Assembly (NCBI RefSeq): GCF_022346925.1
Contig: NZ_JAKRNJ010000003.1
Span: 186,001 to 250,000 of the forward strand
DNA from: Microvirga sp. ACRRW
GTDB lineage: Bacteria > Pseudomonadota > Alphaproteobacteria > Rhizobiales > Beijerinckiaceae
Length of the DNA: 64,000 nucleotides
Direction: 5' to 3'
The notes below the pieces were generated by a model that was not told the origin of the DNA, did no database searches, and saw only the letters and a program-made list of their open reading frames with translations. The position numbers and the translations under genes are program-made. Positions 10,934-63,808 of this stretch are shown here, piece by piece (the first letter of the stretch is position 1; each line of letters begins with the position of its first letter).

Positions 10934-10964
10934 GCACCATCGGAGAAAGCTAGCTTGTCAACAT

Positions 10965-11004
10965 TTGGCGTATCATACGCCAATATTGGCGTTCTATACG
11001 CCAA
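10965..11004. promoter_or_regulatory. Two tandem 19-bp palindromes, probable XRE operators
   Basis: The first, at 10965-10983, is a perfect palindrome of half-site TTGGCGTAT. The second, at 10986-11004, has the same right half and a left half with two mismatches. Their centres are 21 bp apart, two helical turns, so two dimers could bind on one DNA face. They sit between the divergent XRE and ParA-like genes. Confidence 0.7.
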
Positions 11005-11081
11005 ATTGCTGGCATCGAATCCTTGGATGCGGTAACTCTGGTGCGAATCAGCGGCCCGCCGCGCACGCATCCTGGAACGTC

Positions 11082-29316: not shown

Positions 29317-29733
29317 CTAATGCTGATGATGCTGACATTGACCATGATCGGCCAGGACCTCGATGATTCGGCATTCGGAGATGCGTCGGTGATCACAGGC
29401 CACCATGGCCTCAAGCTCATCGCGCAAGGCCGTCAGACGGGCGATCTTATCGTTGATCTCGGCAAGATGAGTCTTGGTGATGCCATGGACTTCGCCGCAG
29501 GAACGGTCGGGATCGCCCGCGAGGTCCAGGAGTTGCCGGATCGCCTCGACCTCAAAACCCAGCTCGCGGGCATGGCGGATGAAGTTGAGCCTCCGAACGT
29601 CCTCAGGTCTGTACCGTCGTTGCTGGCCTTCGGTCCGGATCGGCTCGGCCAGGAGGCCGATCTGCTCGTAGTACCGGATGGTGGGTATTTTCACCTGGGT
29701 CTGCCGCGACAGCTCGCCAATCGTCAGGGACAT
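29317..29733 (-). CDS. cadR: MerR-family Cd/Zn/Pb-responsive regulator (CadR/ZntR-like)
   Basis: The 138-residue MerR protein starts with the canonical LTIGELSRQTQVKIPTIRYYE HTH. It has the metal-site cysteine in PDRSCGEVHGITKTHL, and a second ACDH...SEC region. The His-rich tail GQCQHHQH is typical of CadR. It is divergent from the P-type ATPase gene, with a MerR-type promoter between. It should activate cadA by untwisting a 19-bp spacer promoter when Cd or Zn binds. Confidence 0.88.
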   Translation of the reverse strand: MSLTIGELSRQTQVKIPTIRYYEQIGLLAEPIRTEGQQRRYRPEDVRRLNFIRHARELGFEVEAIRQLLDLAGDPDRSCGEVHGITKTHLAEINDKIARLTALRDELEAMVACDHRRISECRIIEVLADHGQCQHHQH

Positions 29734-29806: not shown

Positions 29807-32110
29807 ATGTGTGAGGCCTGCAATCTGCCCGGCGCCCCGGAAGGCGAGCCGGAATCCGTACCTGCCAAGACGCAGCGCACCCGTTACCGGGTCTCCGGAA
29901 TGGATTGTGCATCGTGCGCGGCCAAGATCGACAATGCCTTGAAGCGTGTGCCCGGCGTGTCGGAGGTCAACGTCTCGGTTCCGGCGGGCACCGTGACCGT
30001 CATTCACGATGACACGGTCATTCTCGATACCCTCGCCAAGCAGATCGGAACTCTCGGCTTCAAGGTGACGGGGCAGGAACCCGCAGGCTCCCAGGCATCT
30101 GCGCCGAAGACCGAACACGCTCATGATCATCAGCACGGACCAGGCTGCGGTCATGAACATCACAAGGATGGCGACAAGCATGACCATGGTGCCGAGGCTT
30201 CCGCCGGCCTGCATGGCCATCTGCATGATCACGGTCCGAGCGAAGGGCCGTGGTGGCGAAGCCAGCGTGGTCTCCTGACCATCGCTTGTGGCGTGGCGCT
30301 CGTGGCGGCCTATGCCATCGGCCAGATGGCGCCCGCGACCGAGCGCTGGGCCTTCCTGCTCGCGATGGCGGTCGGCCTGGTGCCGATTGCCCGGCGCGCG
30401 CTCATCGCAGCCCGCTTCGGCACACCGTTCTCCATCGAGATGCTCATGAGCATCGCCGCCGTCGGCGCCGTCATCATCGGCGCCACCGAGGAAGCGGCTG
30501 CGGTCGTCTTCCTGTTCCTCGTCGGCGAGCTTCTGGAAGGCGTCGCTGCCGGGCGTGCGCGCGCCAGCATCCAGGGATTGATCAAGCTCGTGCCCAAGAC
30601 CGCGCTGCTCGAGCGCGACGGCAAGACCGAGGAGGTTCAAGCCGAAACTCTCGCGATCGGTGCGATCATCCTGATCCGCCCGGGCGACCGGGTGCCCGCC
30701 GACGGCGAAATCGTATCCGGCGAGAGCGCCGTCGACGAAGCGCCTGTGACCGGCGAGAGCACGCCCAAGCGCAAAGGCGTCGACGACACGGTCTTCGCCG
30801 GCACGATCAACGGCGACGGCGCGCTGCGCGTGCGCGTTACCGCAGCTGCGCAGGACAACACCATCGCGCGCATCGTGCGCCTCGTCGAGGAAGCGCAGGA
30901 GAGCAAGGCGCCGACGGAACGCTTCATCGACCGCTTCTCGCGCTACTACACGCCCGCCGTCCTCGTCGTCGGCGCTCTCGTCGCCGTCGTGCCGCCGCTC
31001 GTCGTCGGCGCCTCCTGGGGCGAGTGGGTTTACAAGGGCTTGGCGATCCTGTTGATCGGCTGCCCATGCGCGCTCGTCATCTCGACGCCCGCCGCCATTG
31101 CCGCCGGCCTGTCGGCCGGCGCCCGGCGTGGCCTGTTGATGAAGGGTGGCGCCGTGCTGGAGAGCCTCGGCAAGATCACCATGGCGGCCTTCGACAAGAC
31201 GGGCACGCTCACCGAAGGCAAGCCCAAGGTTACCGACGTGATCCCCGTCGGACGGTCCGAGCGTGAGGTGCTGTCTTTGGCTGCTGCGCTGGAAACGGGA
31301 TCGAGCCATCCGCTGGCCACCGCCATTCTGGCGAAGGCCGCCGAGATCAATGTTCCGGTTCCGCCCGCCGCGAACGGCGCCGCCGTCGGCGGTAAGGGTG
31401 TGACGGGCAACGTCGGCGGCGTGTCGCTGTTCCTCGGCTCGCCTAAGGCGGCAAGCGAGAAGGTTGCGCTCGATCCGGAGCAGACGGCGCGCATCGCCGC
31501 GCTCAACGACGAGGGCAAGACCGTATCGGTGCTTCTCGCCAACGATCAGGTAGCCGGGCTGATCGCCATGCGCGACGAACCGCGCGCCGATGCCAAGGAA
31601 GGGCTTGAGGCCCTGAACAATGCCGGGGTGAAGTCCCTGATGGTCACCGGCGACAACCGCCGCACGGCCGAAGCCATTGCCGCCGGACTCGGCATCGAGC
31701 CACGCGCTGAACTGCTGCCGCAAGACAAGCAGGCCATCGTCCGCGATCTTCAGGCCAAAGGACAGGTGGTCGCCAAGATCGGCGACGGCATCAACGACGC
31801 TCCAGGCCTTGCTGCCGCCGATGTTGGTATCGCCATGGGCGGGGGCACCGACGTGGCGCTCGAGACCGCCGACGCCGCTGTTCTGCATGGGCGCGTGACG
31901 GACGTGGCGCGCATGGTGCGCCTGTCCCGCGACACCATGGCCAACATCCGCCAGAACATCACCATCTCGCTCGGCCTCAAGGCCGTGTTCCTGGTGACCA
32001 CCATTCTCGGCATCACGGGCCTTTGGCCTGCGATCCTGGCGGATACAGGCGCGACGGTGCTGGTGACCGCCAACGCCATGCGCCTGCTCGGCGCCGGAGG
32101 GCGAGTGTGA
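29807..32110 (+). CDS. cadA: P1B-type Cd/Zn/Pb-exporting ATPase (CadA/ZntA)
   Basis: The 767-residue heavy-metal ATPase has an N-terminal HMA domain with SGMDCASC (residues ~31-38). A His-rich linker (~105-145, many H and D) is followed by eight TM segments with the CPC ion site in LIGCPCALVISTP. The phosphorylation motif is [11 protein letters not shown] and the hinge is GDGINDAPGLA. It pumps Cd, Zn or Pb out of the cytoplasm. It is divergent from cadR and its TGA overlaps the lspA ATG, so cadA-lspA-ICMT are coupled. Confidence 0.92.
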   Translation: MCEACNLPGAPEGEPESVPAKTQRTRYRVSGMDCASCAAKIDNALKRVPGVSEVNVSVPAGTVTVIHDDTVILDTLAKQIGTLGFKVTGQEPAGSQASAPKTEHAHDHQHGPGCGHEHHKDGDKHDHGAEASAGLHGHLHDHGPSEGPWWRSQRGLLTIACGVALVAAYAIGQMAPATERWAFLLAMAVGLVPIARRALIAARFGTPFSIEMLMSIAAVGAVIIGATEEAAAVVFLFLVGELLEGVAAGRARASIQGLIKLVPKTALLERDGKTEEVQAETLAIGAIILIRPGDRVPADGEIVSGESAVDEAPVTGESTPKRKGVDDTVFAGTINGDGALRVRVTAAAQDNTIARIVRLVEEAQESKAPTERFIDRFSRYYTPAVLVVGALVAVVPPLVVGASWGEWVYKGLAILLIGCPCALVISTPAAIAAGLSAGARRGLLMKGGAVLESLGKITMAAFDKTGTLTEGKPKVTDVIPVGRSEREVLSLAAALETGSSHPLATAILAKAAEINVPVPPAANGAAVGGKGVTGNVGGVSLFLGSPKAASEKVALDPEQTARIAALNDEGKTVSVLLANDQVAGLIAMRDEPRADAKEGLEALNNAGVKSLMVTGDNRRTAEAIAAGLGIEPRAELLPQDKQAIVRDLQAKGQVVAKIGDGINDAPGLAAADVGIAMGGGTDVALETADAAVLHGRVTDVARMVRLSRDTMANIRQNITISLGLKAVFLVTTILGITGLWPAILADTGATVLVTANAMRLLGAGGRV

Positions 32111-49181: not shown

Positions 49182-49295
49182 GTCTCATCCTCATCGCGGG
49201 AGCCGTACGGCGGGGCGAGCACGAGGTTCTCCTGCGCTTGGGAAGTGCTGCATCCGCACATGATGTGAACTCCAATTGGCCTTGACGATGCCGGA

Positions 49296-49326
49296 ACTCT
49301 GCGCCTTGCCACGATGGCAAGGTCAA
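49296..49326 (-). promoter_or_regulatory. CueR-type copper promoter A
   Basis: On the minus strand TTGACC (49321-49326) and CAGAGT (49296-49301) are 19 bp apart. CCTTGCC/GGCAAGG arms form a palindrome at 49304-49322. The layout is that of CueR/CopR-activated copper promoters and matches sites B (51333) and C (60274). Confidence 0.75.
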
Positions 49327-49418
49327 GAGGCGTTTCCCGAATCCGGTGTCATCATCGGGGCATGCCGGGGAACCGAACGATCAGTGCACCGTTGGCGCGT
49401 TGACCTCTTTGGGATGCA

Positions 49419-49901
49419 GTGACCTCTCTGCTTCGCGTGGTGATCGGCCGCTTGATGGTCGCCTTCGGCCTCGGGAGTGCCCCGCTTTCCGCGTCCGCTC
49501 AAATGATGGCGTGTGGCCCTGGGATCTCTACCCAGGAGGCGCATGCCATGCATGCGAGCAGCAGCCAACCTGACCATCGGCACGGTGCCTCATCCAAGCC
49601 CCACGCTATGGGTAAAGTCTGCTGCCATCCCGGGTGCAACATGGCGATGACCCATTGCCTGGAGCAGGGCGGCAAGCATGTGGAGCCCGGCCATTTCCGC
49701 CTCATGATGGCCTGTGCCGAGATCTGCCGGACCTCCGCCCACTTCATGCTGATCGGCACGCCTCACCACAAGCACACCTGCCGCGAATGCGCGGAAATCT
49801 GCGAGGAATGTGCCCAGTCCTGTGAACAGGTCGGCGACATGCAGGATTGCGTCGACACCTGCCGTCGTTGCGCCGAAAGCTGCCGCAGGATGGCAGCCTA
49901 A
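49419..49901 (+). CDS. Fusion of a Cys/His-rich exported leader protein with a four-helix copper-storage domain (Csp-like)
   Basis: The 160-residue product starts at GTG 49419 with a signal-peptide-like region (LMVAFGLGSAPLSASAQ) and a His/Cys stretch ending KVCCHPGCNMAM. It continues directly as the Csp/DUF326 domain (HCLEQGGKHVEPGHFRLMMA to CAESCRRMAA), which has CxxxC pairs on four helices for Cu(I). In the second locus the same two parts are separate genes (52877-53236 and 53363-53695). A deletion joining CCHPGC to the middle of the first Csp helix would explain it. It lacks the first ~25 Csp residues with their cysteines. Confidence 0.75.
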   Translation: MTSLLRVVIGRLMVAFGLGSAPLSASAQMMACGPGISTQEAHAMHASSSQPDHRHGASSKPHAMGKVCCHPGCNMAMTHCLEQGGKHVEPGHFRLMMACAEICRTSAHFMLIGTPHHKHTCRECAEICEECAQSCEQVGDMQDCVDTCRRCAESCRRMAA

Positions 49902-49927: not shown

Positions 49928-50468
49928 ATGAAGATCCGTGTCCTACTCCTCGCGAGCACCGTTGCTACCATCGCCGCATCAAGCGCCATCGCCCAGCAGA
50001 GCCAGGGAAGCTCCATGGCAGGGCAGCAGCAGAACGCGATGAATTTACCCGAGGTGTGCCGCACAGCAGCTCAGGCCGGCAGCGGGGGCCAGATGATGCA
50101 GCAGATGCAAAGCATGCAGGGCAACATGTCTCAAACCATGCAGAGCGGCATGGAAGGGATGATGGCTCAAATGAATGAGACTCAGAAGGGTCTGCATGAG
50201 GCCATGATGAAGATGAATGGCCCGATGGTGACGGGCATGATGGCCAAGGACGCCGACGTCGCCTAGGTCATGCTCCATGATCCCGCACCATCAAGGTGCT
50301 ATCGACATGGCTCGGGCCGGCCTGAAAGGGGCCGATAACGCAGCGTCGAAGCAGCTCGCCGAGAAGACCATCATTGAGAACGAGAAGAGCATGAAGGAGC
50401 TGGTCGCTGTCGTTGAGAAACATGCCCAAAGCGAGAGCAAGAACGAGCCGACAGGCTCCACGAAGTAA
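49928..50468 (+). pseudogene. DUF305 copper-binding protein gene, frameshifted copy
   Basis: The 5' part (49928-50266, 112 residues) has a signal peptide and a Met-rich region and ends at TAG in DADVA. The 3' part (50277-50468) resumes at MIPHHQGAIDMARAGL with the DUF305 HHxGAIDMA motif. Compared with the intact gene at 53734-54252 there is a TTC to TAG change and one extra base before ATGATC. DUF305 proteins are ferritin-like helical copper or metal binders. A short reinitiated product cannot be excluded. Confidence 0.85.
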
Positions 50469-50556
50469 CGCAAAACGGGATGGGCGGAGTGTGAGTCAAG
50501 CTCCGCCCATGTTGGTGCTACCTTAAGGATATCTACGTCCGGTTAGACAAACACCG

Positions 50557-51030
50557 TCAGACCTGCTGTACCCCGCGATACCGGGCAAAGGTCTTCTGGC
50601 CCGCAGGCCCGAACAGGACGACATCATAGGTGTCGTTCTCGACGCCTTCGACCTCCATTCCCGGCGAGCCGACGGGCATGCCCGGAACCGCGAGGCCCTT
50701 GGCCTGCGGCTTCTCCATCAGAAGTCGCTTGATGGCATCCGCGGGGACATGGCCCTCGAGGACGTAACCGCCGACTTCCGCCGTGTGGCAGGAGGCAAGG
50801 TCCTGCGGGACGCCCAATCGCACCTTGATGCGGTTGATCTCGGAAGTCTCGATTACGTCCGCGGAGAAGCCAGCCTGGCGCAGGTGGTCGACCCAGCCGG
50901 AGCAACATCCGCAGGATGGATCCTTGGTCACGACAACTTTCGGCAGGGGCTCCTGCGCAATGGCCGCCCGGGCGACAAGGCCGACGCTTGCGGCTCCGAG
51001 GAAGGTCAGGAAACGACGGCGGTGTAGCAT
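50557..51030 (-). CDS. DUF411 metal-binding protein (CopG-like)
   Basis: The 157-residue protein has a twin-arginine-like start (HRRRFLTFLGAASVGLVARAAIA) and the DUF411 core. VTKDPSCGCCSGWVDHLRQAG holds a CxCC motif, and ASCHTAEVGGYVLEGHVP provides further Cys and His. It is periplasmic and copper-linked by context (11 bp downstream of copZ). The family includes CopG of copper clusters. Confidence 0.88.
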   Translation of the reverse strand: MLHRRRFLTFLGAASVGLVARAAIAQEPLPKVVVTKDPSCGCCSGWVDHLRQAGFSADVIETSEINRIKVRLGVPQDLASCHTAEVGGYVLEGHVPADAIKRLLMEKPQAKGLAVPGMPVGSPGMEVEGVENDTYDVVLFGPAGQKTFARYRGVQQV

Positions 51031-51041
51031 GGGAACCTCCT

Positions 51042-51299
51042 TCAGGCTTCGGTCGGGGTGTAGCCGGCCGCAGTCACGAGGGCCTTGATGGATGTCAAAT
51101 CGGTGCTGCCGCGGACCGAGACAAGTTTGGAGGCTGGGTCCGCCTCAACCTGGGTGCCCGGCAGGCCCGTCTCGATGGCCTTCCTGATCGTGCCGGCACA
51201 GTGGCCGCAGGTCATGTCCTCGACCCGCAGGGTCAGGGCATCCGAATGGCGCTCCAAGGGCTGGCTCGATTGGGACTGGTGGGTGCTGCATCCGCACAT
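51042..51299 (-). CDS. copZ: Copper chaperone with HMA domain (CopZ-like)
   Basis: The 85-residue product starts MCGCSTHQSQ, then has an HMA domain with the metal site DMTCGHCAGTIRKAIE and the usual ASKLVSVRG strand. It carries Cu(I) in the cytoplasm, or may have an extra site in the MCGC tip. It is followed by DUF411 and preceded by CueR-type promoter B. The ATG at 51299 is favoured over an upstream in-frame codon. Confidence 0.9.
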   Translation of the reverse strand: MCGCSTHQSQSSQPLERHSDALTLRVEDMTCGHCAGTIRKAIETGLPGTQVEADPASKLVSVRGSTDLTSIKALVTAAGYTPTEA

Positions 51300-51332
51300 G
51301 ATATGGTCTCCGATTCGAGTATCGATACATGC

Positions 51333-51363
51333 ATCCTGCACCTTTCCATGATGGCAAGGTCAA
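51333..51363 (-). promoter_or_regulatory. CueR-type copper promoter B of copZ-DUF411
   Basis: TTGACC (51358-51363) and CAGGAT (51333-51338) are 19 bp apart on the minus strand, with a CCTTTCC/GGCAAGG near-palindrome in the spacer region. The copZ ATG is about 35 bp downstream. Confidence 0.75.
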
Positions 51364-51382
51364 GCGGCGTCGCCACGTCCCC

Positions 51383-52446: not shown

Positions 52447-52719
52447 CTACTTTAGGTAGGTTCGCACCACCTCAATGAGTTCGCCCGCCCCGCGGGCCCG
52501 TTCGGCGCCGTCGGCGGCCTCCAGGACGTGGTTGTGAATGTGATCTTCGATCAGCTCAGCGGTCAGGCCGTTCATGGCCCCACGCACGGAGGCGACGAGC
52601 TGCAGCACGTCAGCGCAGCCGATCTCCTCCTCCACAGCCCGCTCGATGGCCTCGACCTGTCCTTTGATGCGGCGGACGCGGGCAAGAAGCTTGGCTTTCT
52701 CTTTGACTGTGTGGGACAT
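52447..52719 (-). CDS. dmeR: DmeR, CsoR/RcnR-family metal-sensing repressor
   Basis: The 90-residue all-helical repressor has the family signature LLARVRRIKGQVEAIERAVEEE. Metal ligands are GCADVLQLVASVRGAMNGL (Cys) and EDHIHNHVLEA (His pair), the Co/Ni type. It starts at ATG 52719. A G-rich inverted repeat upstream is its likely operator. It controls dmeRF. Confidence 0.88.
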   Translation of the reverse strand: MSHTVKEKAKLLARVRRIKGQVEAIERAVEEEIGCADVLQLVASVRGAMNGLTAELIEDHIHNHVLEAADGAERARGAGELIEVVRTYLK

Positions 52720-52744
52720 GGCACCTCTTCTCCTGCGGCAGGTA

Positions 52745-52765
52745 ATATAGGGGGGTATCCTATAT
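52745..52765. promoter_or_regulatory. DmeR/RcnR-type operator
   Basis: ATATAGG and CCTATAT flank a G-rich centre (GGGGTAT) 26 bp upstream of dmeR. The central G tract within an AT-rich inverted repeat is typical for RcnR/CsoR operators. Confidence 0.6.
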
Positions 52766-52876
52766 GTCGAGAGACAGATGGTCCCAGGTCCGCTGCCCAT
52801 CACCCATGTGATGACTGGATATGTCCGGAACTAAGCGGGGGTGCGACCGTTGGCGAGATGTCCCTAGGATGATGCC

Positions 52877-53236
52877 GTGGCGCACTTTCGCTTCATGCTC
52901 CGTCTCTTGACGGTCGCGATGCTGGCAGTAGGCCTCGCAAGCGCACCGCTATATGCGGCCGCCCAAGCTGCGAGCGGGCCGATGGTCGTCCAGCCCCATC
53001 ATGGACACAAGACCCAGGTCGGCCAGGCTTCCTCGGATCATGACCATATGACTGCCGGCAAGATCCACACGTTGGGGCAGTCCTGCTGTCATCCCGGTTG
53101 CGTCATGGCCGTCGTGCCTGGCTTTGCCAGCCTGGCGACTGCTCCGATGCCATGGACCACTCTAGCGATCCCGCGGGACCGGGGAACAGTTCCCATCACG
53201 CCCTCAGGTCTCGACCGCCCTCCGAAATCCATTTGA
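52877..53236 (+). CDS. Small exported Cys/His-rich protein
   Basis: The 119-residue product (GTG 52877, or ATG 52895) has a signal peptide (LLTVAMLAVGLASAPLYAAAQ). A His-rich stretch and GQSCCHPGCVMAVVPG follow. It is the separate counterpart of the N-terminal part of the fused gene at 49419. The function is unknown; copper binding is inferred. Confidence 0.65.
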   Translation: MAHFRFMLRLLTVAMLAVGLASAPLYAAAQAASGPMVVQPHHGHKTQVGQASSDHDHMTAGKIHTLGQSCCHPGCVMAVVPGFASLATAPMPWTTLAIPRDRGTVPITPSGLDRPPKSI

Positions 53237-53362: not shown

Positions 53363-53695
53363 ATGCACCACATGTCGAAAGAGATGCAGTCCTGCATCGA
53401 CGAATGCCTGCGCTGCTACCAGACCTGCCTCGGCATGGCGATGAGCCATTGCCTGGAGCAAGGCGGCAAGCACGTGGAGCCCGGTCACTTCCGCCTCATG
53501 ATGGCCTGTGCCGAGATCTGCCGGACCTCGGCCCATTTCATGCTGATCGGCACGCCCCATCACAAGCACACCTGCCGCGAGTGCGCGGAAATCTGCGAGG
53601 AATGCGCGAAGTCCTGCGAGCAGGTCGGCGGCATGCAGGAATGCGTCGACCAATGCCGCCGTTGCGCGGAAAGCTGCCGCAAGATGGCGGCCTGA
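53363..53695 (+). CDS. Four-helix-bundle copper-storage protein (Csp-like, DUF326)
   Basis: The 110-residue product has 13 or more cysteines in CxxxC and CxxC spacings on four helices. It begins MQSCIDECLRCYQTCLGMAM and ends CVDQCRRCAESCRKMAA, the pattern of Csp proteins that store many Cu(I) ions. There is no signal peptide, so the cytosolic type is likely. The start follows CAGGAG. It is intact, in contrast with the copy fused at 49419. Confidence 0.88.
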   Translation: MHHMSKEMQSCIDECLRCYQTCLGMAMSHCLEQGGKHVEPGHFRLMMACAEICRTSAHFMLIGTPHHKHTCRECAEICEECAKSCEQVGGMQECVDQCRRCAESCRKMAA

Positions 53696-53733: not shown

Positions 53734-54252
53734 ATGACCATCCGAATGATCGCCCTTGCGGCCACCTTCGTTTCCGCCGGCGCTATTGGGGCGCTGGCCC
53801 AACAGAACCAGCCGCAGCAACAGATGCAGCACCCTGCGGGAGGCCAGATGGCGATGTCGGCTGACAGCCTGCCGGAGGAATGCCGCACGGCCGTGCAGGC
53901 CAGCGGGCAGATGCAGAACATGCAGGGCATGGACATGTCAGGCATGATGCAAGGCATGCAGGGCATGATGGCCAACATGAACGAGGCCCAGAAGGGCTAC
54001 ATGGAAACCATGATGAAGATGCACGGCCCGATGATGGCGGCTCACATGATCAAGGACTCCGACGTCGCCTTCATCTGCGGGATGATCCCCCACCATCAGG
54101 GTGCCATCGACATGGCCCGCGTCGTCCTGAAGACGGGCGACAATGCCGAGGCCAAGAAGATGGCGGAGAAGGTGATCAAGGCGCAGGAGCAGGAAATCGC
54201 CGAGATGAAGGACTGGCTGAAGAAAAACGCAAAGAAAGAAGGTTCTCAATAA
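53734..54252 (+). CDS. DUF305 copper-binding protein, intact copy
   Basis: The 172-residue exported protein has a signal peptide (MIALAATFVSAGAIGALAQ) and a Met/Gln-rich linker (MQNMQGMDMSGMMQGMQGMM). The DUF305 domain has CGMIPHHQGAIDMARVVL and a C-terminal helix. The Met and His content suits periplasmic Cu(I) binding. It is followed by a hairpin. Confidence 0.88.
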   Translation: MTIRMIALAATFVSAGAIGALAQQNQPQQQMQHPAGGQMAMSADSLPEECRTAVQASGQMQNMQGMDMSGMMQGMQGMMANMNEAQKGYMETMMKMHGPMMAAHMIKDSDVAFICGMIPHHQGAIDMARVVLKTGDNAEAKKMAEKVIKAQEQEIAEMKDWLKKNAKKEGSQ

Positions 54253-60273: not shown

Positions 60274-60304
60274 AGACTGGGGCTTCCCACGATGGGAAGG
60301 TCAA
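60274..60304 (-). promoter_or_regulatory. CueR-type copper promoter C of copA
   Basis: TTGACC (60299-60304) and CAGTCT (60274-60279) are 19 bp apart on the minus strand, with CTTCCC/GGGAAG arms in the spacer. The copA ATG at 60238 is about 36 bp downstream. Confidence 0.75.
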
Positions 60305-62734: not shown

Positions 62735-63442
62735 CTAGCGTGCCTTTCGGATGCTGACGACGGAGATCTGGCCGTTCACCCGGTCGGCCTGAAACTGAAC
62801 CTTGTCGCCGGCTTTCACACCTTTCAGGAGCGCCGGATCCTGGACGCGAAACACCATGGTCATCGCATCCATGTTCAGGTTCGGGATCGCACCATGATCG
62901 AGCGTGATCTTGTTCTGGGCCGTGTCGACTTTCTCGACGGTTCCCGAAACCATCGGGGCCTGGCTTGCAGGTGACGCGGGCTGCGCGGGTGTGGCTGCGG
63001 GAGCCGGCGCAGTCGGAGCCGGAGCGGCTTGCGCCGTTTGCGTCCCGCGCTGATCCAGTGGCCCGGATCCGTGAGGAGGCTGGTCCAGGCGGGCGCGATA
63101 ATCTGCCTGCCGATTGCGGACCTGCCATTCCTTCAGTTCGGAAATCTGCTTCTGCTGCTCGTCGAGGATCTTCTGTGCGACCCGGCGAAGCTGCTCGTCG
63201 GCACCGTGCTCCAACTGGGTCCGCGCAAGGAAGATCAGGTCTTCATGATGGGCGATGAGCAGCGCGGCGAAATCCTTGTCGGGGGCGCCTGCGAGCTTCA
63301 TGTCCTTGAAGCGGTCGTTCATGACCTCGCGAACGCGTTCATAGGCAGCGGGCGCTCCCTTGGAGGGCTGAGCCTGTGCAGAAACGACAGCGCCAACAAG
63401 CGTCAACGCAGCAGCCGTGAGAGTGGCAGTCAAGAGTTTCAT
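62735..63442 (-). CDS. DUF305-like / CusF fusion, exported copper-binding protein
   Basis: The 235-residue product has a signal peptide (LTATLTAAALTLVGAVVSAQA) and a DUF305-type helical domain (LIAHHEDLIFLARTQLEHG, then AQKILDEQQKQISELKEW). A Pro/Ala-rich linker (~135-165) leads to a C-terminal CusF domain (GTVEKVDTAQNKITLDHGAI and MDAMTMVFRVQDP). CusF binds Cu(I) with Met and Trp/His residues. The domain is nearly the same as the separate CusF gene next to it (63509). Confidence 0.85.
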   Translation of the reverse strand: MKLLTATLTAAALTLVGAVVSAQAQPSKGAPAAYERVREVMNDRFKDMKLAGAPDKDFAALLIAHHEDLIFLARTQLEHGADEQLRRVAQKILDEQQKQISELKEWQVRNRQADYRARLDQPPHGSGPLDQRGTQTAQAAPAPTAPAPAATPAQPASPASQAPMVSGTVEKVDTAQNKITLDHGAIPNLNMDAMTMVFRVQDPALLKGVKAGDKVQFQADRVNGQISVVSIRKAR

Positions 63443-63508: not shown

Positions 63509-63808
63509 TTACTTGCTCTTCTTGATGGAGGTGACGGAGATCTGGCCGTTCACGCGATCGGCCGTGAACTGAACCTTGTCGCCGGCTTTCACGTCCTTGA
63601 TCAGGGCGGGATCCTGAGCACGGAACACCATCGTCATGGCATCCATGTTGAGGTTCGGAATCGCGCCATGGTCGATGGTGATCTTGCTCTGTGCAGTGTC
63701 GACCTTCTCGACGGTGCCGGAGACGGTCGGAAGGCCCTGCGCGAGAGCGGCGCCTGAGAGTGTCAGCGCGGCAGTCAGGACAGCAGCGGCGAAGTTGATG
63801 CGTTTCAT
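63509..63808 (-). CDS. cusF: CusF-like periplasmic copper-binding protein
   Basis: The 99-residue product has a signal peptide (INFAAAVLTAALTLSGAALA) and the CusF domain. GTVEKVDTAQSKITIDHGAI and LNMDAMTMVFRAQDP carry the Met and His ligands, and FTADRVNGQISVTSIKK ends the barrel. It carries Cu(I)/Ag(I) to the efflux pump. It is upstream of the DUF305-CusF gene (66 bp) and the two CusF domains look like recent duplicates. Confidence 0.9.
   Translation of the reverse strand: MKRINFAAAVLTAALTLSGAALAQGLPTVSGTVEKVDTAQSKITIDHGAIPNLNMDAMTMVFRAQDPALIKDVKAGDKVQFTADRVNGQISVTSIKKSK

Follow-up and report, generated by a model that had tools for sequence, protein, structure and literature searches.

A fused secreted-protein and Csp gene, probably formed by deletion, in a decaying copper cassette of Microvirga sp. 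ACRRW

The closest described relatives of the gene analysed here are the cytosolic copper-storage proteins of the RkCsp3/NmCsp3 subgroup of Csp3 (PDB entries 6ZIF and 3LMF). Members of the RkCsp3 subgroup bind about 17–20 Cu(I) per monomer and are tetrameric (PMC10155185). They form a complete four-helix bundle with cysteines at positions 11, 15, 18 and 22 of helix 1 and have no signal peptide. MtCsp1 and MtCsp2 are exported through the Tat route, and exported Csp-type proteins also occur in Microvirga sp. Mcv34 (L031) and Variovorax sp. WDL1 (L006). The Mcv34 protein (G003:C5) is a separate and distant Csp (44% identity) and represents a Csp1-like exported protein in the genus. Nothing directly relevant was found in the literature on exported or fused Csps. 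Within Microvirga, a Csp gene belongs to a conserved cassette in which genes for a DUF411 protein and an HMA-domain protein lie on one strand and face, on the other, a gene for a genus-specific secreted Cys/His-rich protein (here the N gene) followed by Csp and DUF305 genes. The N-gene family shows a distant and weak relationship to DUF2946 (best E value 0.0016, six of 13 members matching); an NCBIfam match of the N gene to cytochrome c7 scored far below the cut-off and was taken as a chance match of a Cys/His-rich sequence.

From the comparisons described below, we conclude that the window (the whole 64,000-nucleotide stretch of Microvirga sp. ACRRW DNA that was analysed) holds one complete cassette and the remains of a second. 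The complete cassette consists of DUF411 (50557–51030) and HMA (51042–51341) genes on the − strand and, on the + strand, separate and intact N (52877–53236, 119 residues), Csp (53363–53695, 110 residues, RkCsp3 subgroup) and DUF305 (53734–54252) genes. Between its HMA and N genes lie a cation-efflux transporter gene and csoR, an arrangement unlike that in most relatives. The CsoR-type repressor (Trns_repr_metal; 52447–52803, − strand) is divergent from the intact N gene, and a GGGGGG-centred inverted repeat near 52752 (region 52700–52860) resembles a CsoR site.

About 3.5 kb from the intact N–Csp pair, an open reading frame of 160 codons (49419–49901, + strand) starts with GTG and has no internal stop codons. 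Residues 1–73 (49419–49637, + strand), which end in CCHPGC, derive from an N gene (37–53% identity to Microvirga N genes), and residues 75–160 (49641–49898, + strand) correspond to residues 25–110 of Csp. The fused protein scores 22.2 bits against DUF326 (gathering cut-off 20.4), and the best solved relatives of its Csp part are RkCsp3 (6zif, E value 6e-31) and 3lmf. The initial annotation had already recognized this frame as a gene and had equated its two halves with the proteins encoded at 52877 and 53363. For the C-terminal half the match to the local Csp is clear, with 92% amino-acid identity over residues 74–160. For the N-terminal half the homology holds (alignment score 118; the highest score among 1000 shuffles was 27), but the equality does not, as identity to the 52877 protein is 42% over 71 residues.

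The fused protein resembles each of the described systems in part. As in the RkCsp3/NmCsp3 subgroup, what remains of its Csp aligns fully and has the same cysteine pattern from Cys30; unlike these proteins, it has lost the first 24 residues and the four helix-1 cysteines and has an N-terminus of exported type, as judged by N-gene homology and hydropathy only. The intact local Csp is a plain member of the subgroup. Like MtCsp1 and MtCsp2, the fusion places a Csp domain behind a predicted export signal, but it has neither a twin-arginine signal (there is no RR in the n-region) nor a full helix 1, and its TIGR04401 score is 15 bits against a cut-off of 100. The exported Csps of Mcv34, from the same genus, and of Variovorax (signal RRRL) differ from it in their twin-arginine-like signals and complete helix 1, and neither derives from an N gene. 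With the secreted Microvirga N-gene family it shares the signal, a His-rich stretch, the CCHPGC motif and the promoter, but it falls outside that family in lacking the conserved second half that ends in DRPPK.

The joint lies where the initial annotation placed it, between CCHPGC and N-MAM. The DNA at this point reads TGC-AAC-ATGGC-G-ATG in the fusion, CTC-GGC-ATGGC-G-ATG in Csp genes and TGC-ATC-ATGGC in most N genes of the genus, and the hexamer CATGGC (49640–49645, + strand) is common to both parent genes. The two CATGGC sites are 313–382 bp apart in 14 other Microvirga cassettes and 330 bp apart in the local intact pair. Both genes read the hexamer in one and the same phase, and a deletion between the copies therefore preserves the frame. 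Comparison with the relatives indicates that such a deletion took out the N-gene end, the intervening spacer and 24 codons from the start of Csp, while the frame stayed open. A single event of about 313–382 bp explains the fusion; this explanation comes from comparison, but it is simple, and we regard an origin by deletion as very probable.

The fused form is absent from the 47 other Microvirga genomes (48 including its own) and from 60 relatives, in all of which the genes are separate. Searches of 397 genomes from the family, 398 from the order, the best 80 loci of a scan of GTDB contigs and a plasmid collection did not find it either. As no other genome searched carries a fused copy, the separate genes are ancestral and the fusion is derived, which agrees with the initial annotation; the converse, an ancestral fused form from which the separate genes arose, is rejected. 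Long matches in Rhizobium (L089 and L091), M. arabica (L061) and Paracoccus (L069 and L120) were considered as independent fusions and proved to be ordinary Csps. When 144 loci were screened for upstream signals, two came up, the fusion itself and the Mcv34 exported Csp, which is a separate protein; the screen was not exhaustive, its rule having missed the exported Csp of Variovorax.

A perfect copy of the EcfG-type motif GGAAC-N16-CGTT lies upstream of the fusion (49369–49393, + strand) and is a predicted promoter by motif; another lies upstream of the intact N gene (52827–52851, + strand). In Alphaproteobacteria, the sigma factor of the general stress response, EcfG, uses sites of the form GGAAC-N16/17-CGTT (PMC6599016). 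Exact matches number three in the window, compared with a chance expectation of about one, and two of the three are at the two N-gene starts. A site of this form is found at a similar distance from the N-gene start in nearly every Microvirga cassette (M. sesbaniae has no exact match and one contig ends before the site), which suggests that the N gene–Csp–DUF305 operon is part of the general stress response. Given this conservation, the promoter of the N gene probably continues to drive transcription of the fusion. A CueR-like dyad, CCTTGCCACGATGGCAAGG, at 49304–49322 was also considered as the promoter of the fusion. Its −35 box, TTGACC, is oriented towards the lost HMA gene on the − strand, which lowers its weight relative to the EcfG-type site, the better candidate of the two. 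Similar dyads lie upstream of the intact HMA gene (51341–51359) and of a copper P-type ATPase gene (60282–60300), where 0.06 matches are expected by chance, and the genome encodes a CueR that scores above the cut-off. The three dyads, the first of which precedes the HMA remnant, are likely to constitute a small copper regulon. Elsewhere in the window, a gene for a MerR-family regulator that scores below the CueR cut-off (29353–29724, − strand) adjoins that of a heavy-metal P-type ATPase (29807–32110).

The product of the fused gene would begin with a predicted Sec-type signal peptide, VTSLLRVVIGRLMVAFGLGSAPLSASA (49419–49499, + strand), which is hydrophobic (hydropathy 2.01 over 11 residues), has an ASA-Q site and contains no twin arginine. 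The exported-type product of the initial annotation is thus borne out as a prediction, and the conserved sequence points to probable export by the Sec route. Beyond the signal, the protein is predicted to consist of a His/Met-rich disordered stretch with CCHPGC and then a Csp bundle in which the first helix is shortened from 28 to 14 residues. The first-helix cysteines had been described as lost, and this applies to Cys 11, 15, 18 and 22 but not to Cys 30, which stays; beyond the joint, none of the 12 Csp cysteines is lost. The joint introduces Cys 68, 69 and 73, which come to lie close to where the lost Cys 18 and 22 would have been. With Cys 32, four cysteines have been gained and four lost, so that the total is still 16. 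The AlphaFold2 model of the intact Csp (mean pLDDT 95.7) has helix 1 at residues 6–33 and a TM-score, normalized by target, of 0.96 to 6zif. The model of the fusion is of low confidence over residues 22–67; its first Csp helix spans 14 residues (70–83), pLDDT values in the Csp part are 64–92 by block, and the TM-score to 6zif (RkCsp3) is 0.63 with an r.m.s.d. of 3.5 Å. On these models, the Csp fold of the fusion appears degraded relative to that of the intact Csp. With the 12 Csp cysteines that it retains, the product may bind some extracytosolic Cu(I).

The cassette in which the fusion lies is decaying. Its HMA-domain gene is cut off, leaving the 5′ end and the upstream region (49245–49333, − strand; 77.5% identity to 51283–51370). 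Its DUF305 gene (49928–50471, + strand) is a pseudogene in which a TGG tryptophan codon has become TAG at 50264–50266 and an A has been inserted shortly afterwards; both the stop and the inserted base are missing from four relatives. Damage to Csp itself is seen elsewhere in the genus: the gene is frameshifted in M. lupini (L152) and in genome G383 (L149, G383:C6), and no Csp lies between the N and DUF305 genes in G010, G011, G014:C12 and G305. The storage protein has been lost repeatedly in Microvirga, and the deletion of part of it is thus unsurprising.

Selection on the Csp part was assessed with a codon model over 86 shared codons, leaving out the joint codon. The value of ω was 0.11 on the fusion branch and 0.018 elsewhere (p = 0.04); with the fusion and the local Csp placed as sisters, it was 0.14 on the fusion branch (p = 0.005). 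Neutrality (ω = 1) was only just not rejected on this branch (p = 0.053 under both trees). As the branch extends back beyond the fusion event and carries few changes, these values suggest rather than prove that constraint has been relaxed. A young fusion would look conserved with or without selection, so the conservation data are compatible with a functional and with a non-functional product.

We read the gene as a deletion chimera in a second, decaying Microvirga copper cassette, more likely a tolerated by-product than a selected storage protein (probability about 0.6). An intact Csp gene is present 3.5 kb away, which is why toleration seems the likelier fate, and an expressed, probably unselected by-product is favoured over a working exported Csp. 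Counting against the by-product are the intact reading frame, the 12 downstream Csp cysteines, the perfect promoter and the fact that only two of the 86 residues in the Csp part are unique to the fusion. The intact frame would also suit a new functional protein, a Sec-exported Csp that buffers periplasmic Cu(I) under general stress, with CCHPGC replacing the lost helix-1 cysteines. The total of 16 cysteines, the location of Cys 68/69 and 73 near the lost Cys 18 and 22, the retained EcfG-type promoter and the precedents in Mcv34 and Variovorax all fit, and from the sequence a working exported Csp is possible. Those precedents, however, keep the whole first helix and Tat-like signals, neither of which the fusion has, and the decaying cassette, relaxed constraint and degraded fold model also speak against this explanation, which we consider unlikely. 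More doubtful still is the full sequence of events, in which one deletion would have converted a cytosolic Csp to a periplasmic copper binder that is exported by Sec and induced in general stress, its partner's CCHPGC taking the place of the lost helix-1 cysteines. The new protein foreseen by the initial annotation is not supported as a functioning one, and the surrounding cassette is degenerating. The fusion is a clean example in that relatives reveal its parents, its joint and its likely mechanism. It also makes a simple question testable, namely whether a Sec-exported Csp bundle that has lost half of helix 1 can function beyond the cytosol. An inactive product would make the fusion a case of ordinary cassette decay, of which Microvirga offers several other examples.

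A local origin had been implied as well, by duplication of the present pair at 52877 and 53363 followed by deletion. The 92% identity of the two Csp parts is compatible with this, and a joint clade of the fusion and the local genes is not formally rejected by the AU test (p = 0.128 for N and 0.141 for Csp). Against it, the Csp half of the fusion is 94–95% identical to the Csps of other Microvirga species. The N halves share just 42% identity, while over the same stretch the 52877 protein is 56–64% identical to those of three other Microvirga species and the N half of the fusion reaches 53% with others. In the N tree the local gene groups with those of M. guangxiensis, M. calopogonii, M. tunisiensis, M. 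vignae and M. sesbaniae (support 98/98) and the N half of the fusion falls outside this clade; a tree constrained to unite the two is 14.7 log units worse. The trees favour separation from the local pair, but not significantly with 81 (N) and 261 (Csp) alignment columns. The neighbouring DUF305 belongs to a different paralog type, being 72% identical to copies in other Microvirga species and 56% identical to the local copy at 53734, and the upstream regions of the fusion and of the intact pair differ. In a cassette of genome G383, a DUF305 of the type found beside the fusion (62%) lies next to N and Csp genes that are not joined; the Csp there is frameshifted. Judged by these sequence relationships, the source of the fusion was probably a cassette other than the pair 3.5 kb away, and we consider a local duplication improbable.

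An assembly or sequencing artefact at the joint is the least probable explanation: the fused form is seen in one genome only, but the joint is within a 605 kb contig, and the flanks differ from the intact pair along their full length, so that it cannot have arisen by misassembly of the two local copies into a chimera. Two repeats were noted in other parts of the window. One is a 44-bp inverted repeat at 10963–11006 that is 86% self-complementary, and the other is a 198-bp direct repeat (62759–62956 and 63533–63730), the copies of which are 83% identical and 0.6 kb apart.
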